This document shows positions 52,070 to 64,000 of a stretch of 64,000 bases of DNA, piece after piece (the stretch's first letter is position 1; each line of letters opens with the position of its first letter). The notes under the pieces are model-generated. The model searched no databases. It was not told where the DNA came from and was given only the letters and a program-made list of their open reading frames with translations. The stretch is from NCBI GenBank assembly GCA_031082125.1, contig JAVHLM010000010.1, positions 62,001-126,000 of the forward strand, in the 5' to 3' direction. Both the position numbers and the translations under genes were made by a program. The DNA is from Candidatus Eremiobacterota bacterium. GTDB lineage: Bacteria; Vulcanimicrobiota; CADAWZ01; Ess09-12.

Positions 52070-52119
52070 AGGAATTAATTCCCGCAAGGGATTAAAGAGT
52101 ATTAATGGAGGTGCGGCAT

Positions 52120-52905
52120 ATGTATGATGGAATAAAAAAGGCGACGTTAGGAATGCAGGCGATGAACCAGAAGCAGGACGTCATACTCAACAACCTGGCC
52201 AACGTGGGCACCACGGGCTACAGGAGGGAGAACATGACCTTCTCGTCCTTCAGCGAGGTGATGGAGAAGGAGATGACCTTCAACCCCAGTCCCACCAAGA
52301 AGAGCAGCGAGTACCAGCAGGCCGGCATCGGTGTTGAGTCAGACGGGATGCTCTACCAGCGCACGCTGACCTCTTTTTCGCAGGGCTCCCTGAAGAACAC
52401 CGGCAACACCCTGGACCTTGCCCTTGATGACGACGGGAGAGGCTTCTTCACCATCAAGACGGATAAGGGCCTGGCCTTTTCGAGGGGCGGCTCCTTCCGC
52501 ATCGACAACCAGGGTTACCTGTGCACCCAGGATGGCTCGTTCGTGATGGGCCACAAGGGGAAGATACAGCTCGGGGGCTCGAGCGTAGGGGTGACCAACG
52601 AGGGGATGATCAAGGTTGACGGGAAAGAGGTTGACAAGCTTCTTGTCACCGAGTTCAACGACAAGATGGCCAACAGGGGCCTCATGCACTCCGGTGACAA
52701 CAACTTCCAGGCGAATGCCGGCGGCAGGATTGCCACGAACTCTCATGTGAAGCAGGGCTTCCTGGAGATGGCAAATGTCAATGCCGTGCAGTCGATGATT
52801 GAGCTCATGACCATCATGAGGGCCTACGAGGCGAACCAGAAGACCCTCCAGGCGGAAGACAAGATGATCCAGAAGACGGTGAACGAGACCGGTAAGGTTC
52901 GGTAA
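52120..52905 (+). CDS. Flagellar basal-body rod protein, FlgF/FlgG family
   Basis: 261 residues from ATG 52120, 7 bp after GGAGGT; an ATG at 52105 lies inside the ribosome site. GMQAMNQKQDVILNNLANVGTTGYRRE is the N-terminal rod signature and SMIELMTIMRAYEANQKTLQAEDKM the C-terminal one. LDLALDDDGRGFFTIKTDKGLAFSRGGSFRID is the middle FlgG-type domain. It builds the rod that crosses the cell wall. Proximal (FlgF) against distal (FlgG) cannot be settled, but its downstream neighbour is the better FlgG. Confidence 0.9.
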   Translation: MYDGIKKATLGMQAMNQKQDVILNNLANVGTTGYRRENMTFSSFSEVMEKEMTFNPSPTKKSSEYQQAGIGVESDGMLYQRTLTSFSQGSLKNTGNTLDLALDDDGRGFFTIKTDKGLAFSRGGSFRIDNQGYLCTQDGSFVMGHKGKIQLGGSSVGVTNEGMIKVDGKEVDKLLVTEFNDKMANRGLMHSGDNNFQANAGGRIATNSHVKQGFLEMANVNAVQSMIELMTIMRAYEANQKTLQAEDKMIQKTVNETGKVR

Positions 52906-52936
52906 GTTTTATAAATCAACAAGGAGGGTGAACCAT

Positions 52937-53701
52937 ATGTTAAGAGGGCTTTACACAGCAGCGTCAGGAATGTCTGCCCAGCAGATGAATATTGACAATA
53001 TTGCCAATAACCTGGCGAACATTCAGACGACGGGGTACAAAAAATCCCGCCTGGATTTCCAGGATCTTCTCTACTCCCACACCCAGGATCCCGGCACCGA
53101 CGCGACGGTGGGCACCCAGATCGGTATGGGCGTGAGAGCCTCGGCGACGCAGCAGATCTTCACCGACGGGAGCTTACTTCAGACGGGCCGTGACCTTGAC
53201 GTGGCCGTACAGGGCCAGGGCTTTTTTGAAGTGACCCTTCCCAACAACAAGAAGGCCTATACCAGGGACGGCGCCTTCAAAATGGACGGCCAGGGGAATC
53301 TCCTCACCGGTGCCGGCTACTCACTGGGCGTGCAGATTCCCAAGGATGTCTCCAACCTTGTGATAGAATCTGACGGCACCATCAAGGGAACGCCCATAAG
53401 CTCGACAGAGCCCAAGGTGATAGGCCATCTCACCCTGGTGCGCTTCCTGAACCCTGCGGGCCTCAAGTCGATGGGGAGCAACCTCTATGACAGGACGCCC
53501 ATTGCCGGTGACATGTTCAAGGGCACGCCCGGCAAGGAAGGGCTGGGTACGCTTGCCCAGGGCCACCTTGAAAAAGCCAACGTGAATGTCATCGAGGAGA
53601 TGATCAGTATCGTGCAGGCCCAGCGCGCCTATGAAATGAACCAGAAGGGCGTTCAGGCTTCCGATGAAATGGTGAGAATGGCCAACCAGCTCCAGAAATA
53701 A
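52937..53701 (+). CDS. flgG: Flagellar distal rod protein FlgG
   Basis: 254 residues from ATG 52937, with AAGGAGGG upstream. MLRGLYTAASGMSAQQMNIDNIANNLANIQTTGYKKS is the FlgG start. DLDVAVQGQGFFEV and YTRDGAFKMDGQGNLLTGAGY follow, and EEMISIVQAQRAYEMNQKGVQASDEM ends the rod signature. It forms the distal rod. It lies 31 bp after its paralogue. Confidence 0.93.
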   Translation: MLRGLYTAASGMSAQQMNIDNIANNLANIQTTGYKKSRLDFQDLLYSHTQDPGTDATVGTQIGMGVRASATQQIFTDGSLLQTGRDLDVAVQGQGFFEVTLPNNKKAYTRDGAFKMDGQGNLLTGAGYSLGVQIPKDVSNLVIESDGTIKGTPISSTEPKVIGHLTLVRFLNPAGLKSMGSNLYDRTPIAGDMFKGTPGKEGLGTLAQGHLEKANVNVIEEMISIVQAQRAYEMNQKGVQASDEMVRMANQLQK

Positions 53702-53797
53702 CCATGAGGGACAGCCCAGGGTGAAAAAGTTGCCCATTGGTGTGAGGGAGCGGAAGGAAAACGGGGATATCTTGACTAATAAAGGAGGTAGGGGAAG

Positions 53798-54091
53798 ATG
53801 CAGATCGAGGGTATTACACCCCAACCGATTAAGGATGCAGCTGATGTCACCCCTTCCAAGAAGCAGGAGGAGTCGAAGCTGAAGGATGCCTGCCAGCAGT
53901 TCGAGTCTCTTTTCCTGTCCCAGATTCTGAAGGAGATGAAAAAATCCATACCAAAGGCCGAAGGTGAAGAGGGAAAAGACAAGGATATGTATGAGGATCT
54001 CATGTACGAGGAGATCTCCAAGTCAATGGCGGCTTCGGGCGGAATCGGTATGGCCAATATTCTCTATCAGCAGATGAAGGATATCATGTGA
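53798..54091 (+). CDS. flgJ: Rod-binding protein, FlgJ N-terminal domain
   Basis: 97 residues. KLKDACQQFESLFLSQILKEMKKSI and YEDLMYEEISKSMAASGGIGMANILYQQM give the Rod-binding domain of FlgJ. The muramidase part of proteobacterial FlgJ is absent, as in many other phyla. It caps the growing rod in the periplasm. AGGAGGT lies before the ATG. Confidence 0.85.
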   Translation: MQIEGITPQPIKDAADVTPSKKQEESKLKDACQQFESLFLSQILKEMKKSIPKAEGEEGKDKDMYEDLMYEEISKSMAASGGIGMANILYQQMKDIM

Positions 54092-54143
54092 GCGAAAGGG
54101 AGCATGGCTGCCGGTAGTTTCTTCTCCTTATGGAGGTTTATGC

Positions 54144-54950
54144 ATGCCGGTAGACGTTGCTGAGCTGTGGGGAAAGTTCAAATCCCAGGCTGATCTCGGG
54201 GCCAAGGAGACGCTTATTGCCTCCTATCTCCCCCTGGTGAGGCAGATTGCAGTAAGCATCATCAAGAAGCTCAGGCCGGGTGTTGATCTTGACGACCTCA
54301 TAAGCGACGGCACTTTTGGCCTCATGCGGGCCGTGGAGCAGTTTGACCCCGGACGGGGAGTGAAGTTTGAAACTTACGCCACTCCTGTCGTTCGGGGTGC
54401 TATTTATAATGGCCTCCGCGCCCTGGACTGGATGCCTGAGCGCACCAGGGGGAAGGCAAGGGCTCTTCAGCGCGCCATGGAGAAGTTTTCAGTGCTCTAC
54501 GGGAGGCCCGGCACCGAGGAGGAGCTTGCCGAAGAGCTCAAAATGAGCACCTCGGAAGTTTATGAGCTCATCACCGATCTTGGCTGTGTTTACTTGCTCT
54601 CGCTTGATCAGCCCTTCCCCACAAGCGACGATGACGAGGCAAGCATTCTTGATATCATAGAGGACAAGGACGGCACCGATCCCTCGATAGAGATCGAGTT
54701 CATTGAGCAGCGCGAGATACTGCGGCGCAGCGTTGAGGAGCTTTCCGAGCGGGAGCGGACCCTTATCCAGATGCACTATTTTGATGGCGTTCCCTTTGAC
54801 AAGATTGCCCAGATAATGGGAGTTTCCAAGCAGAGGATCTCGCAGATCCACAGCCGCGCGGTGAGAAGGCTCAGGGAACAGCTCTCCATGGAAGGCTTCA
54901 GGGAGGGGCAAAGGGAGGAGACTGTTCACAGCTACGACCAGCATATCTGA
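54144..54950 (+). CDS. fliA: RNA polymerase sigma factor, FliA/WhiG (sigma-28) family
   Basis: 268 residues. Region 2 has LVRQIAVSIIKKLRPGVDLDDLISDGTFGLMRAVEQFDPGRGVKFETYA-type sequence; regions 3 and 4 have RPGTEEELAEELKMS and LIQMHYFDGVPFDKIAQIMGVSKQRISQIHSRAVRRLRE. Sigma-28 drives late flagellar and chemotaxis genes. GGAGGT is 7 bp before the ATG. It closes the block of flagellar genes; no FlgM anti-sigma gene is visible. Confidence 0.93.
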   Translation: MPVDVAELWGKFKSQADLGAKETLIASYLPLVRQIAVSIIKKLRPGVDLDDLISDGTFGLMRAVEQFDPGRGVKFETYATPVVRGAIYNGLRALDWMPERTRGKARALQRAMEKFSVLYGRPGTEEELAEELKMSTSEVYELITDLGCVYLLSLDQPFPTSDDDEASILDIIEDKDGTDPSIEIEFIEQREILRRSVEELSERERTLIQMHYFDGVPFDKIAQIMGVSKQRISQIHSRAVRRLREQLSMEGFREGQREETVHSYDQHI

Positions 54951-59420: not shown

Positions 59421-59798
59421 ATGACATTCGGTGATGACAGGATGGATCTCCTCACGTTCCTCAGGAATCTGGCTGATTACCTGGCTGCAGGAGTGAAGTT
59501 CGAAGGAAGCGAGATAGAAAACAGCCTCCACGCGGTGATAGAAAATGTGTTATCAATCCGTGCCGAGTATCAGAATCCTTCCCCTCCCGGGACGGAAACC
59601 ATCAGGGAATTCATGCTGGAGGCCCTTGACCTTTTTGAAAGCGCCATCGGAGAGTTCTTTACCTTCTTTGAGGACGGTGACGTCGAGCATCTCAGAATTG
59701 GCGTGATGAATGCAGAGGAAGCCAATGACATCCTCAGCTCGATAGAGTACATCATTGAGCAGAACAAGCAGTGGCTCAGTGAGTTCGTGGCGGGGTAG
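59421..59798 (+). CDS. Helical protein paralogous to the C-terminal part of the MerR-like neighbour
   Basis: 125 residues. DRMDLLTFLRNLADYL, AEYQNPSPPGTETIREFMLEALDLFESAIGEF and ANDILSSIEYIIEQNK align with EKMDLLRFLQKLC, CAYQEKAPQDTLSTEMNGLMLKGIELYLDSIHEI and AHNILSSLEEIAEKKK in the next gene. It lacks any DNA-binding domain, so it may be a partner that joins or opposes the regulator. The two genes are 2 bp apart. Confidence 0.7.
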   Translation: MTFGDDRMDLLTFLRNLADYLAAGVKFEGSEIENSLHAVIENVLSIRAEYQNPSPPGTETIREFMLEALDLFESAIGEFFTFFEDGDVEHLRIGVMNAEEANDILSSIEYIIEQNKQWLSEFVAG

Positions 59799-59800
59799 CG

Positions 59801-60754
59801 ATGAACATTGAAGAAAAAGACTTCTATACCATGGAAGAGGTCCTTGATCTCTCAAAGGAGCTTGCCATTGAGATTGATGAGCGGACCTTCAAATATTATC
59901 TCTCCCTTGAGATCATCTCTAAACCGGTAAAGAATCCCTATCCCCAGGGAGACAAGAGGATTAAATTCTATCCCGCCCGGGTTATCGATGAGCTCAAAAG
60001 GATATTTCAGCTCAAGAACAGGGGATTTTCCCTCAAGCAGATCAAGAAGCTCTTCATTGAGGAAAAGAGCAAGGAGCTTGATGTGCTCATTGATGTCACG
60101 GGAAAGGATGAAAAGCGTGAGATGGCCCATGCTTACCTCGAGGCCCTTCTCGGTTCAGAGTCCAAAATCGCCTGGAAGGAGTTTCTCTCTGCCTCAACAA
60201 GCGAGGTTTCCGAAAAGACTCTTCTCGATGCCTTGAAGCTGTACCTGGAGAGAATGCTCAGCTCATGGCTCCGATCCGACGAGGCGGGCAAGTATGTGGA
60301 GGAGTATCTTCTCGATCTTGATTCCGATATCCGGGAGGGTGTCGTGGATTTTTTCAAGAAGGCCCGCGACAACGAGATAATGAAGCACCGGGCCGAGAAG
60401 ATGGACCTTCTCAGGTTTCTGCAGAAGCTCTGCGGCCGTGTCATCCTGGGGAGATACAACAGGGCAGAGGTTGAGGAGTGGCTCAACGAGGTGATAGCGA
60501 ACCTGGAGAAGCTCAAGTGTGCTTATCAGGAGAAAGCCCCTCAGGATACCCTTTCTACCGAGATGAACGGACTCATGCTAAAGGGGATCGAGCTTTATCT
60601 CGATTCCATTCACGAGATAAAGGAGAACATCTCTTCAAAGAGAAGGGAGATCCTCATTGCGGCACTTGGGAAAGCACGGACTGCCCATAACATCCTCAGC
60701 AGCCTGGAAGAGATAGCGGAAAAAAAGAAGGTTCTCATCGGTCTCGCGCGCTGA
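59801..60754 (+). CDS. MerR-like regulator with helical C-terminal domain
   Basis: 317 residues. About 5-90 is a MerR-type winged helix: YTMEEVLDLSKELAIEIDERTFKYYLSLEII, then RIKFYPARVIDELKRIFQLKNRGFSLKQIKKLF. The remaining 220 residues are helical with no known effector domain; the last 120 are paralogous to the neighbouring 125-residue protein. GGGG lies before the ATG. The DNA target is unknown. Confidence 0.75.
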   Translation: MNIEEKDFYTMEEVLDLSKELAIEIDERTFKYYLSLEIISKPVKNPYPQGDKRIKFYPARVIDELKRIFQLKNRGFSLKQIKKLFIEEKSKELDVLIDVTGKDEKREMAHAYLEALLGSESKIAWKEFLSASTSEVSEKTLLDALKLYLERMLSSWLRSDEAGKYVEEYLLDLDSDIREGVVDFFKKARDNEIMKHRAEKMDLLRFLQKLCGRVILGRYNRAEVEEWLNEVIANLEKLKCAYQEKAPQDTLSTEMNGLMLKGIELYLDSIHEIKENISSKRREILIAALGKARTAHNILSSLEEIAEKKKVLIGLAR

Positions 60755-60783: not shown

Positions 60784-62763
60784 TTATTTCTTTGAAGAGG
60801 GCTTCTTTTTCTTTTTCGGTGCGGTCTTCACCTTGTCCTCGGTAGTGGCCTGCGGCGGCTTTTCAGGGGTTTTTCTGCCCTTTTTCGCCGGCTGTGTCCT
60901 GGGATGCTCCGTGAGGTTCTCCAGTTCCTTTTCTATCATGGCCTGGTATTTTGCCTTTCCCTGGCGCTTTGCCAGGTCGAGGGCGATTTCAAGCTGCACC
61001 TTTGCATTATCAATCTCGCCGGTCTTTACGTGGAGAAGTCCCAGGTTCCCCTGTGCGGGGAGCAGGTTGGGATCTATCTCTATGGCGGCCTGGTACTCCA
61101 GAATGGCCGACTCCAGATTCCCCAGCTCCGAGTAAGCAAGGCCCAGGTTGAAATGTGCTTCAGCATAGCGGCTGTTGAGGGCTATGGCCTTCTTCCACAT
61201 CTCCACGGCCCCTTCTATCTTTCTCTGCCGGGCATAGACTATGCCGAGATTATTATGGGAGTAAATATCATTGGGATCAAGCTGGATTGATTTCTCAAAA
61301 GCCTCCTGGGCCTTTTCCAGCTGATTCTGATAGGTGAAGGCAAGGCCCAGGTTGTTGTAGGTATAGGCATCCTGGGGATCAATCTCGAGGGCTCTCCTGA
61401 ACACCTCGATTGCTTTTGCCGTGTCATTTATGGAAATATAGGCCAGCCCAAGGTTGTTATAGGTAAAAAGGTCCCGGGGATTTATGGTGAGTGATTTTTC
61501 ATAATGATGTATTGCCTTGTCTATCTGGCCGGTCCTCGCGTAACAGAGTCCCAGATTGTTAAGAGCATAGGTATCATGGTTATCAATGAAGAGAACCCGC
61601 GCGAAGTGCTCGATTGCCTCTGAAAGGTTCCCCATCGAGCAGAGGGCGAATCCCAGGTTGTTGAGGGCAAGAATATCCTGGGGCTGAAGCTCGACAGTGC
61701 GCCTGAACTGGGTTATTGCCTCCCGGATCCGCCCCATCCTTATAAGGCAGAGCCCCAGGTTGTTGTGGGCGTAAATATCCCTGGGATCAATGGAAAGGGA
61801 TACCCTGAATTCCGTCTCGGCCAGATCGAGCTTGTCAATGGTAAGATAAGCCCTGCCCAGGTTGTTTCTGGCATAGGTATCCATCGGATTGATCTCAAGG
61901 GCCTTGTGAAACTCGTCAATTGCCTTCTCCCACTGTGCAAGCTGCGCATAGACCATTCCAAGGTTATGGTGGGCAACGGCGTCTTTCGGGTTGTATTCGA
62001 TGATCCCGTTGAACTGCTCCAGCGCCTCATTCCACCTGCTCTGCTTGGCAAGAACCCTTCCAAGATTGTTGCGGGCGTAAATATCGTTGGGATTGATCTC
62101 CAGAGCCTGGCGGAACTCCACCTCGGCTTCCTCGATGTTTCCCAGTTTTTCAAGGACCTTGCCCAGATTGTTGTGGGCATAGAGATCGTTCTGGTCTATC
62201 TCGATGGCAAGCCGGAACTCCGTCATTGCCTCTTCAAGGTCTCCCCGCTGCGCATAAAGGAGGCCCAGGTTGTTGTGGGCATATACATCCCTGCTGTTTA
62301 TCTGGAGGTCTGTTTTGTACTCGCTGACAGCCTCGTCTATCTTGCCCAGTTTTGAGTAAATGAGCCCCAGGTGATAATGGGCCTGGCTGTAATCCGGATC
62401 AATCTCGATGGCCTTTCTGAGGACATCTATGCTCTCGTTGTACTTCCCCTGCCTGGCAAGAATGAGCCCAAGGTTGTTGTAGGCCGAGACATCGGCATGA
62501 TCAAACTCGATGGCCTGCTGGTAAATCTCCACGGCTTCAGCAAGCTTTCCTATGGAAAGGTAAGCAATGCCGAGCATATAGCGTGCATTTGAGTGATGAG
62601 GGTCAAGATCGATGGCTTTTTTCAACGCCTTGCTTGCGAGCCCCCATTCACCCCGCTGGGCATGCTTGACGCCTGAGTTATAGTGAATCTCCGGATCCTT
62701 TGATTCCTCCAGGGTTCCGGTGTCAGATTTCTCGGTGAATTCGTTGCTGTGAGCCTTGGACAT
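60784..62763 (-). CDS. Long tetratricopeptide-repeat protein
   Basis: 659 residues made almost entirely of 34-residue TPR units, about 17 of them, from residue 25 to about 600. Each has the pattern A.NNLG..Y...G....A...F..A..I.P.D, for example YAHNNLGLLYAQRGDLEEAMTEFRLAIEID-type units. The last 60 residues are Lys/Pro-rich (KKGRKTPEKPP, PKKKKKPSSKK). AAGGGGGA precedes the ATG. Highly regular TPR arrays act as scaffolds, or as the substrate-binding arm of O-GlcNAc-type enzymes; there is no catalytic domain here. It converges on the MerR-like gene. Confidence 0.92.
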   Translation of the reverse strand: MSKAHSNEFTEKSDTGTLEESKDPEIHYNSGVKHAQRGEWGLASKALKKAIDLDPHHSNARYMLGIAYLSIGKLAEAVEIYQQAIEFDHADVSAYNNLGLILARQGKYNESIDVLRKAIEIDPDYSQAHYHLGLIYSKLGKIDEAVSEYKTDLQINSRDVYAHNNLGLLYAQRGDLEEAMTEFRLAIEIDQNDLYAHNNLGKVLEKLGNIEEAEVEFRQALEINPNDIYARNNLGRVLAKQSRWNEALEQFNGIIEYNPKDAVAHHNLGMVYAQLAQWEKAIDEFHKALEINPMDTYARNNLGRAYLTIDKLDLAETEFRVSLSIDPRDIYAHNNLGLCLIRMGRIREAITQFRRTVELQPQDILALNNLGFALCSMGNLSEAIEHFARVLFIDNHDTYALNNLGLCYARTGQIDKAIHHYEKSLTINPRDLFTYNNLGLAYISINDTAKAIEVFRRALEIDPQDAYTYNNLGLAFTYQNQLEKAQEAFEKSIQLDPNDIYSHNNLGIVYARQRKIEGAVEMWKKAIALNSRYAEAHFNLGLAYSELGNLESAILEYQAAIEIDPNLLPAQGNLGLLHVKTGEIDNAKVQLEIALDLAKRQGKAKYQAMIEKELENLTEHPRTQPAKKGRKTPEKPPQATTEDKVKTAPKKKKKPSSKK

Positions 62764-63071: not shown

Positions 63072-63143
63072 AAAGTTGACGGTAGAAAGTGTTGACAGTA
63101 AAAACTGAATTGAAAGAGCTAAAGAGATAAGGAGGCAGAGATA

Positions 63144-64000
63144 ATGAGCAGTTACCCGATGAACTTCAATGTGGGAGTGAACCTCGGATTCCAGGTGGGG
63201 TCGCCCGAGATGATGGCGTACCAGCAGAGGATGATGATGAGGCAGTCGGCCCTGGAAGGGGCTTACATGCCCATGCCTCAGCCCAGCCTTGCCGAGGTCA
63301 TGAGCATGCAGGGCTTTTATAACGGGTGCCTGGGCCATATCCAGCAGCTCCGCTACGGAGTGCCCTTCCCCGGCGGGCTCTTTGAGGGGATGCCTCCAGG
63401 TTCCACAATGGGCGGGCTCATGGCAGGGATGCCTTCATCAAATACCTTTGCTTACTTGGATCCCTCCATCATGCAGTATCTGCAGATGCAGCAGCAGCAG
63501 AGCAACATGACGATCATGATGTGCTTCATGATGCAGCAGCAGGCGCAGATGCAGCAGCAGCTGATGGCCATGCTTCTCCAGCAGAATCAGCTTCCCTGGG
63601 AGCAGATGAGGCAGCTCATGGGACAGCAGAATTTCCCATCGACGCCACCTCCCTCCTATCAGGGAAACCAGGGCACCCAGCAGACCCAGGGCACTCAGGG
63701 CACCCAGCAGACCCAGGGCACCCAGGGCGTTGACAGGGGAGCTGCCCGTGCCGATGCCGTGGCGCTCCATAACGCGATGGAGGGCATGGGGACCGATGAG
63801 CATGTTCTCACGTCCATCCTTTCGAGCAGGAACGATGCCCAGATTGCCGCCATAAAACAGGAATACCAGTCAATGTTCGGCCACCCCCTTGAAAAAGATA
63901 TCAAGGGTGACACGAGTGGATGGTACGAGACGACGCTCCTCGCCCTCAGCGAGGGCAACAAGGGCAACAGGGCCCCCAACGAGTCAGAAGCCCGTGCCGA
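63144..64000 (+). CDS. Annexin-repeat protein with Met/Gln-rich N terminus (runs off right edge)
   Basis: 285 residues are visible from ATG 63144, 9 bp after AAGGAGG. Residues 1-170 are Met/Gln/Pro-rich (YLQMQQQQSNMTIMMCFMMQQQ), then GTQ-rich repeats at about 175-195. From about 200 one annexin repeat is clear: ADAVALHNAMEGMGTDEHVL, SSRNDAQIAAIKQEYQSMFGH, and LEKDIKGDTSGWYETTLLAL. GMGTDE is the type II calcium loop. Further repeats probably follow beyond the window. Annexins bind acidic phospholipid with calcium in eukaryotes; bacterial members are rare and mostly uncharacterised. There is no signal peptide. Confidence 0.85.
   Translation, partial: MSSYPMNFNVGVNLGFQVGSPEMMAYQQRMMMRQSALEGAYMPMPQPSLAEVMSMQGFYNGCLGHIQQLRYGVPFPGGLFEGMPPGSTMGGLMAGMPSSNTFAYLDPSIMQYLQMQQQQSNMTIMMCFMMQQQAQMQQQLMAMLLQQNQLPWEQMRQLMGQQNFPSTPPPSYQGNQGTQQTQGTQGTQQTQGTQGVDRGAARADAVALHNAMEGMGTDEHVLTSILSSRNDAQIAAIKQEYQSMFGHPLEKDIKGDTSGWYETTLLALSEGNKGNRAPNESEARA

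Follow-up and report, generated by a model that had tools for sequence, protein, structure and literature searches.

An annexin gene and its surroundings

The DNA analysed here (the window, 64,000 nucleotides, G000:C10:62001-126000) comes from a Candidatus Eremiobacterota genome (G000) of 7.43 Mb in 69 contigs. On its forward strand, a reading frame opens with ATG at position 63144 and exits the window at 64000, 285 codons on. In the assembly, this frame continues to about 64949 and encodes a protein of 601 amino acids (L009:5145-6950), as shown by the open reading frame list and the genome search. A Shine-Dalgarno sequence, AGGAGG, is read on the same strand at 63130-63135, 8 nt 5' of the ATG, and a strong intrinsic terminator with a 13-bp stem lies directly 3' of the stop codon. 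Because the neighbouring genes on either side are on the opposite strand, the annexin gene probably forms a single-gene unit. Upstream, the forward strand carries a gene for a 125-aa helical protein without Pfam match (59421-59798) and one for a MerR-like regulator (59801-60754), which is similar to the 125-aa protein in its C-terminal part. Between the MerR-like and annexin genes, the opposite strand encodes a 659-aa protein composed almost entirely of TPR repeats (60784-62763). Two FlgF/FlgG-like rod proteins, a FlgJ-like protein and a FliA-type sigma factor were recognised by eye from the translations at 52105-54950.

The Pfam Annexin model matches the 601-aa protein with 334 bits (E 6.7e-102, curated cut-off 25). 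The sequence-only reading had described the GMGTDE type II calcium loop and an annexin repeat as clear, and had proposed to extend the sequence past 64000 and count the repeats. The profile match agrees with this description, with GMGTDE at residue 214, and further repeats were found downstream, giving four in total. Repeat 1 (63753-63947, forward strand, 85.6 bits in the genome search) contains a complete type II site (GMGTDE ... GDTSG). Repeat 2 spans 63999-64193, with only its first bases (63999-64000) inside the window, and repeats 3 and 4 lie beyond it on the same strand, to about 64949. All four repeats carry GxGT[DN]E and the acidic D of IKGDTSG, the signatures of complete type II Ca2+ sites. 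In a single-sequence AlphaFold model of the window fragment, repeat 1 forms five helices with pLDDT up to 87, the model being weak overall (mean pLDDT 52.9). Judged by its sequence, the protein is almost certainly a bona fide annexin.

As a member of the annexin family, it has an unusual arrangement. The four-repeat core is present but non-contiguous (2+2): between the pairs R1-R2 and R3-R4 lie 79 residues, which include 13 Thr-Pro-Asn-Gln units, (TPNQ)13. A quick FastTree of the repeats placed R1 with R3 and R2 with R4, with weak deep supports, and the repeat pair was therefore probably duplicated; the tree was left out of any claim on gene transfer. A second annexin gene of the same genome (L010:8450-10921, G000:C14) has nearly identical internal repeats. 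It encodes at least six of them, a lower bound because of an assembly gap within the gene. Gene calls in the fetched loci are mechanical.

Eukaryotic contamination was rejected in view of the bacterial Shine-Dalgarno sequence, terminator and neighbouring genes. It is also contradicted by paralogues on other contigs and by a syntenic homologue in another genome. A phage or plasmid origin was rejected as well, with no phage match and a single weak plasmid match (28% identity).

An N-terminal head shared by proteins with unrelated tails

The region preceding the annexin repeats contains a module at residues ~27-76 (63222-63371, forward strand; head profile match at C10:125222-125371), hereafter named the head, with the core motif FYNGCLGHIQQLRYGVPFP and the pattern ..FYNxxLxxIxxLRYxxxFP... 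Two other annexin-like proteins of the source genome, encoded on C14 and C17, have a stretch of this head in common (FYNGCLGHIQQLRYG.PFP). The C14 gene carries the head motif in two tandem copies. The C17 protein (L011:362-4117, G000:C17) has 1251 aa, with LysM, a degenerate annexin repeat, a transglutaminase (TGL) match and 121 TPNQ units encoded in 19 synonymous forms.

A profile built from the C10, C14 and C17 heads retrieved ten further proteins of the source genome (E 1.2e-11 to 5.6e-4), so that the head recurs near the N terminus of about 13 of its proteins. With one exception, the profile matches these proteins within roughly their N-terminal 85 residues. The exception, on C37, has a longer upstream frame, in which an internal start would restore the N-terminal position. 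The tails behind these heads matched annexin, VanY, SLT, NlpC/P60, calpain and HNH above the Pfam cut-off, and CHAP and PG_binding_1 just below it; several heads are followed by no recognisable payload domain. Across the phylum, the head profile gave N-terminal matches in several other families, in members with large genomes, where the tails comprise EF-hand plus calpain, HrpK1/NolX-type repeats and others that were not recognised. Profiles A3 and A6 contain their own matches, and the independent E-values are those of the first own-genome and first phylum-wide searches.

When compared with Pfam, NCBIfam and PDB, the head gave no match at a meaningful E-value, and the family appears to be undescribed as far as these libraries show. 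That the head is a sorting module common to proteins of unrelated C-terminal function is well supported.

Downstream from the head, composition delimits a Met/Gln-rich helix at residues ~107-162 (63462-63629, forward strand; a helix at 107-146 in the low-confidence model), and a Gln/Thr/Gly low-complexity linker with GTQ repeats follows at 63639-63734 on the same strand. The Met/Gln-rich and GTQ stretches pointed out from the window alone are thus real, the best 40 residues of the annexin reaching 65% Met+Gln. Heads fall into two subclasses. Those of class I have CLxxIxQLRYG followed by the Met/Gln-rich helix (50-72% over the best 40 residues) and are found on the two annexins and on three peptidoglycan-hydrolase proteins (VanY, SLT, NlpC/P60). 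Those of class II mostly have LxxIDxLRxP and lack the helix (3-17%). None of 207 other open reading frames examined in the source genome reaches 40% Met+Gln over 40 residues.

The sequence-only reading had correctly noted that this N terminus is not a known annexin head. It had added that the region may drive assembly or phase separation. A head peculiar to this annexin and serving such an end is not supported, given that about a dozen proteins with unrelated tails carry the head and that the Met/Gln helix is limited to one subclass. In a broader form of this idea, class I heads would co-assemble as helical bundles or condensates into a body, in the cytosol or at the surface, where enzymes and the annexin gather. 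The Met/Gln-rich 40-residue stretches unique to class I speak for it, as do the Gln-rich TPNQ arrays (13 units in the window annexin, 121 in the C17 protein), and the transglutaminase of the latter might cross-link Gln-rich parts. We nevertheless consider it unlikely: class II heads carry the motif without the helix, which is therefore not the common denominator, and the VanY, SLT and NlpC/P60 payloads act on the wall, outside the membrane. Sorting or export fits the spread of heads over unrelated tails better than an annexin-specific condensate.

Neighbouring genes and candidate routes of export

Seven other genomes (G140, G145, G147, G135, G138, G137 and G013) encode homologues of the 125-aa protein no farther than about 1.5 kb from head genes, and homologues of the MerR-like regulator occur at this distance in G140, G145 and G147. 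At the G140 locus, one assembly frameshift separates the head gene from the part that encodes HrpK/NolX-like repeats, a TQP linker and two annexin repeats; the sequence is described with this frameshift left uncorrected. Two families of the phylum have thus conserved the association of head, Met/Gln stretch and annexin with the small protein and the MerR-like gene; in the source genome, the window locus corresponds to the G140 locus. The TPR gene is absent between the corresponding genes of G140. The linkage makes the 125-aa protein a candidate chaperone.

Association with a MerR-like regulator would also fit a stress regulon. The annexin might then be a cytosolic protein for membrane repair or envelope stress, tagged by its head to the inner face of the membrane, and the protein indeed has no signal peptide-like segment and no strongly hydrophobic stretch. 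We regard this as very improbable. The bacterial cytosolic Ca2+ concentration is normally too low for type II annexin sites, and the same head on wall hydrolases, which need to act outside the membrane, would be left unexplained. Outside the cytosol, wall hydrolases and Ca2+-dependent modules would have a plausible place of action.

Three genomic links tentatively connect the heads with flagellar or type III-type export. The C28 gene encodes a product with two weak head motifs and is immediately followed by a gene for an 80-aa protein. An 84-aa paralogue of this protein (73% identical over 63 residues) is encoded two genes after flhA in the flagellar export operon of the source genome, which comprises fliP, fliQ, fliR, flhB and flhA, all named by eye except fliP and flhA. 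The two small proteins (L055:9556-9798 and L098:9227-9481) have no Pfam match. In G140, the domain of the 80-aa protein is fused behind a head (L076; 38% identity over 52 residues). In addition, two G140 head proteins, one of them joined to annexin, carry HrpK1/NolX repeats (PF16937/PF05819), as partial matches confined to this genome.

Among the FlhA/SctV homologues of the source genome, four are full-length or nearly so and several match the C-terminal part only; the genome also encodes two FliP/SctR and three YscJ/FliF homologues. The C-terminal domain of FlhA, FlhA-C, docks export substrates and chaperones (PMC9431611). The FlhA/SctV homologues of G000 were located at C1:233200, C38:10127-12241, C1:154983-156854, C31:75182 and C6:58989, and further ones at C56:11984, C41:27749, C9:115001 and C2:222441. 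Two of the longer copies adjoin putative effector-like genes (HNH-like; Peptidase_C92), and a similar expansion was seen in the relatives G133-G140. In the stretches read near the additional SctV-, SctR- and SctJ-like genes, these are isolated and no compact non-flagellar injectisome cluster was seen. A single FliP occurs in each of the head-positive genomes G140, G145 and G147, and two can occur in relatives that lack heads; the head and a second export apparatus therefore do not co-vary across the phylum.

On the basis of these genomic links, a flagellar or type III-like route for the heads is kept as a working hypothesis with a roughly even chance of being right. In the reading that we prefer, and to which we give an even chance, the annexin would be a payload of the head family, directed by its head to flagellar or type III-type export and binding membranes outside. 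The head, together with the Met/Gln helix in one subclass, would be bound by a dedicated small chaperone, for which the protein at 59421 is the candidate; this small protein and the MerR-like regulator (59421-60754) would serve the export of head proteins. The head, acting as a secretion or targeting signal, would lead the protein to the flagellar-type export gate. Outside the cytosol, where Ca2+ would be sufficient, the four type II sites could dock the annexin pairs on membranes of acidic phospholipids, and the flexible (TPNQ)13 tether could let one molecule bridge two membrane patches. Docking and bridging would be the putative role of the annexin after delivery. A wider proposal, which we advance tentatively and at somewhat less than even confidence, is that the head defines an undescribed N-terminal export module present in several families of the phylum. 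It would have its own small-protein/MerR locus, use a flagellar-type gate and export calcium-dependent or wall-degrading proteins, the cargo set comprising annexin, calpain, EF-hand, transglutaminase, peptidoglycan hydrolases and a nuclease.

Alternatively, head proteins could be effectors for competition or host interaction, delivered by an unrecognised contact-dependent system in which the annexin is a membrane-binding delivery part. Payloads such as wall hydrolases, a nuclease and calpain do resemble effector repertoires. Annexin is also listed among the predicted effector domains associated with extracellular contractile injection systems (eCIS) (PMC8213781). In the relative G134 (C35; L140, L141), a large annexin-bearing open reading frame lies about 23 kb from eCIS contractile-sheath genes, a proximity that would fit an eCIS link of annexin there. 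However, the source genome gave no match to the eCIS contractile sheath (PF04984), the T6SS sheath TssC/VipB (PF05943) or WXG100 of the T7SS (PF06013), and immunity partners were not evident by eye beside most head genes. The Pfam LXG profile did not match the heads. We consider delivery of this kind improbable.

Comparison with known annexins and N-terminally tagged proteins

Annexins, calpains and EF-hand proteins are generally treated as parts of a calcium toolkit of eukaryotes. Here, an annexin and a calpain of one bacterial genome have the head in common, as have EF-hand/calpain proteins in relatives. As an export signal, if that is its role, the head would provide a searchable handle on a secretome missed by current domain libraries, as well as a concrete test of bacterial annexin function.

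Bacterial annexins as such are already known; what is new is the head family and its sharing. A 2014 survey established 34 bacterial annexins in 17 species, with up to five repeats, some of them joined to toxin, protease or lipase domains, and left their role open (PMC3894181). In our data, annexin matches were found in 6 of the 149 genomes of the phylum, in line with the earlier remark that annexins are rare in bacteria. Searches of contig collections beyond the phylum with annexin queries (a single protein and a 4-row alignment), and of a viral contig collection with annexin and head queries, confirmed no relative. The window protein resembles the surveyed ones in having bacterial annexin repeats, of which they hold 1-5 per protein, and in the occasional attachment of other domains. 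It differs from them by KGD in all four repeats, [RKH]G[DE] having been reported in two bacterial annexins only (PMC3894181), by its new head family, and by a greater closeness to animal repeats than other annexins of the phylum show. Single C10/C14 repeats share 44-54% identity with their best animal match, mostly domain II; this figure is 38-44% for the best G140 repeat and 30-36% for the remaining genomes of the phylum. Such animal-like repeats are relevant to the unsettled question of which way annexins passed between the domains of life.

The head has partial parallels among families of exported proteins. LXG (T7SS) and similar N-terminally tagged effector families also place one short N-terminal module before many enzymatic domains; in contrast, neither Pfam nor NCBIfam has a family that matches the head, and WXG100 was not detected in the source genome. 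With the HrpK/HrpF/NolX type III translocator family, the likeness lies in the PF16937/PF05819 repeats of the G140 sister head proteins, whereas these repeats match partially, in G140 only, and are absent from the window protein. The eCIS-associated annexin proteins (PMC8213781) likewise have annexin repeats and may act on target membranes, but the source genome has no eCIS sheath match.

The closest comparison is with eukaryotic annexins (ANXA5, ANXA6; PDB 2h0l, 1avc), with which the window protein has in common four repeats and type II Ca2+ loops. Over its whole length, the R1-R2 pair aligns with domains II-III of animal annexins, the long inter-domain linker included. In contrast to these, its repeats are split 2+2 by the 79-residue TPNQ linker, and its head, unrelated to known annexin N termini, is common to non-annexin proteins.
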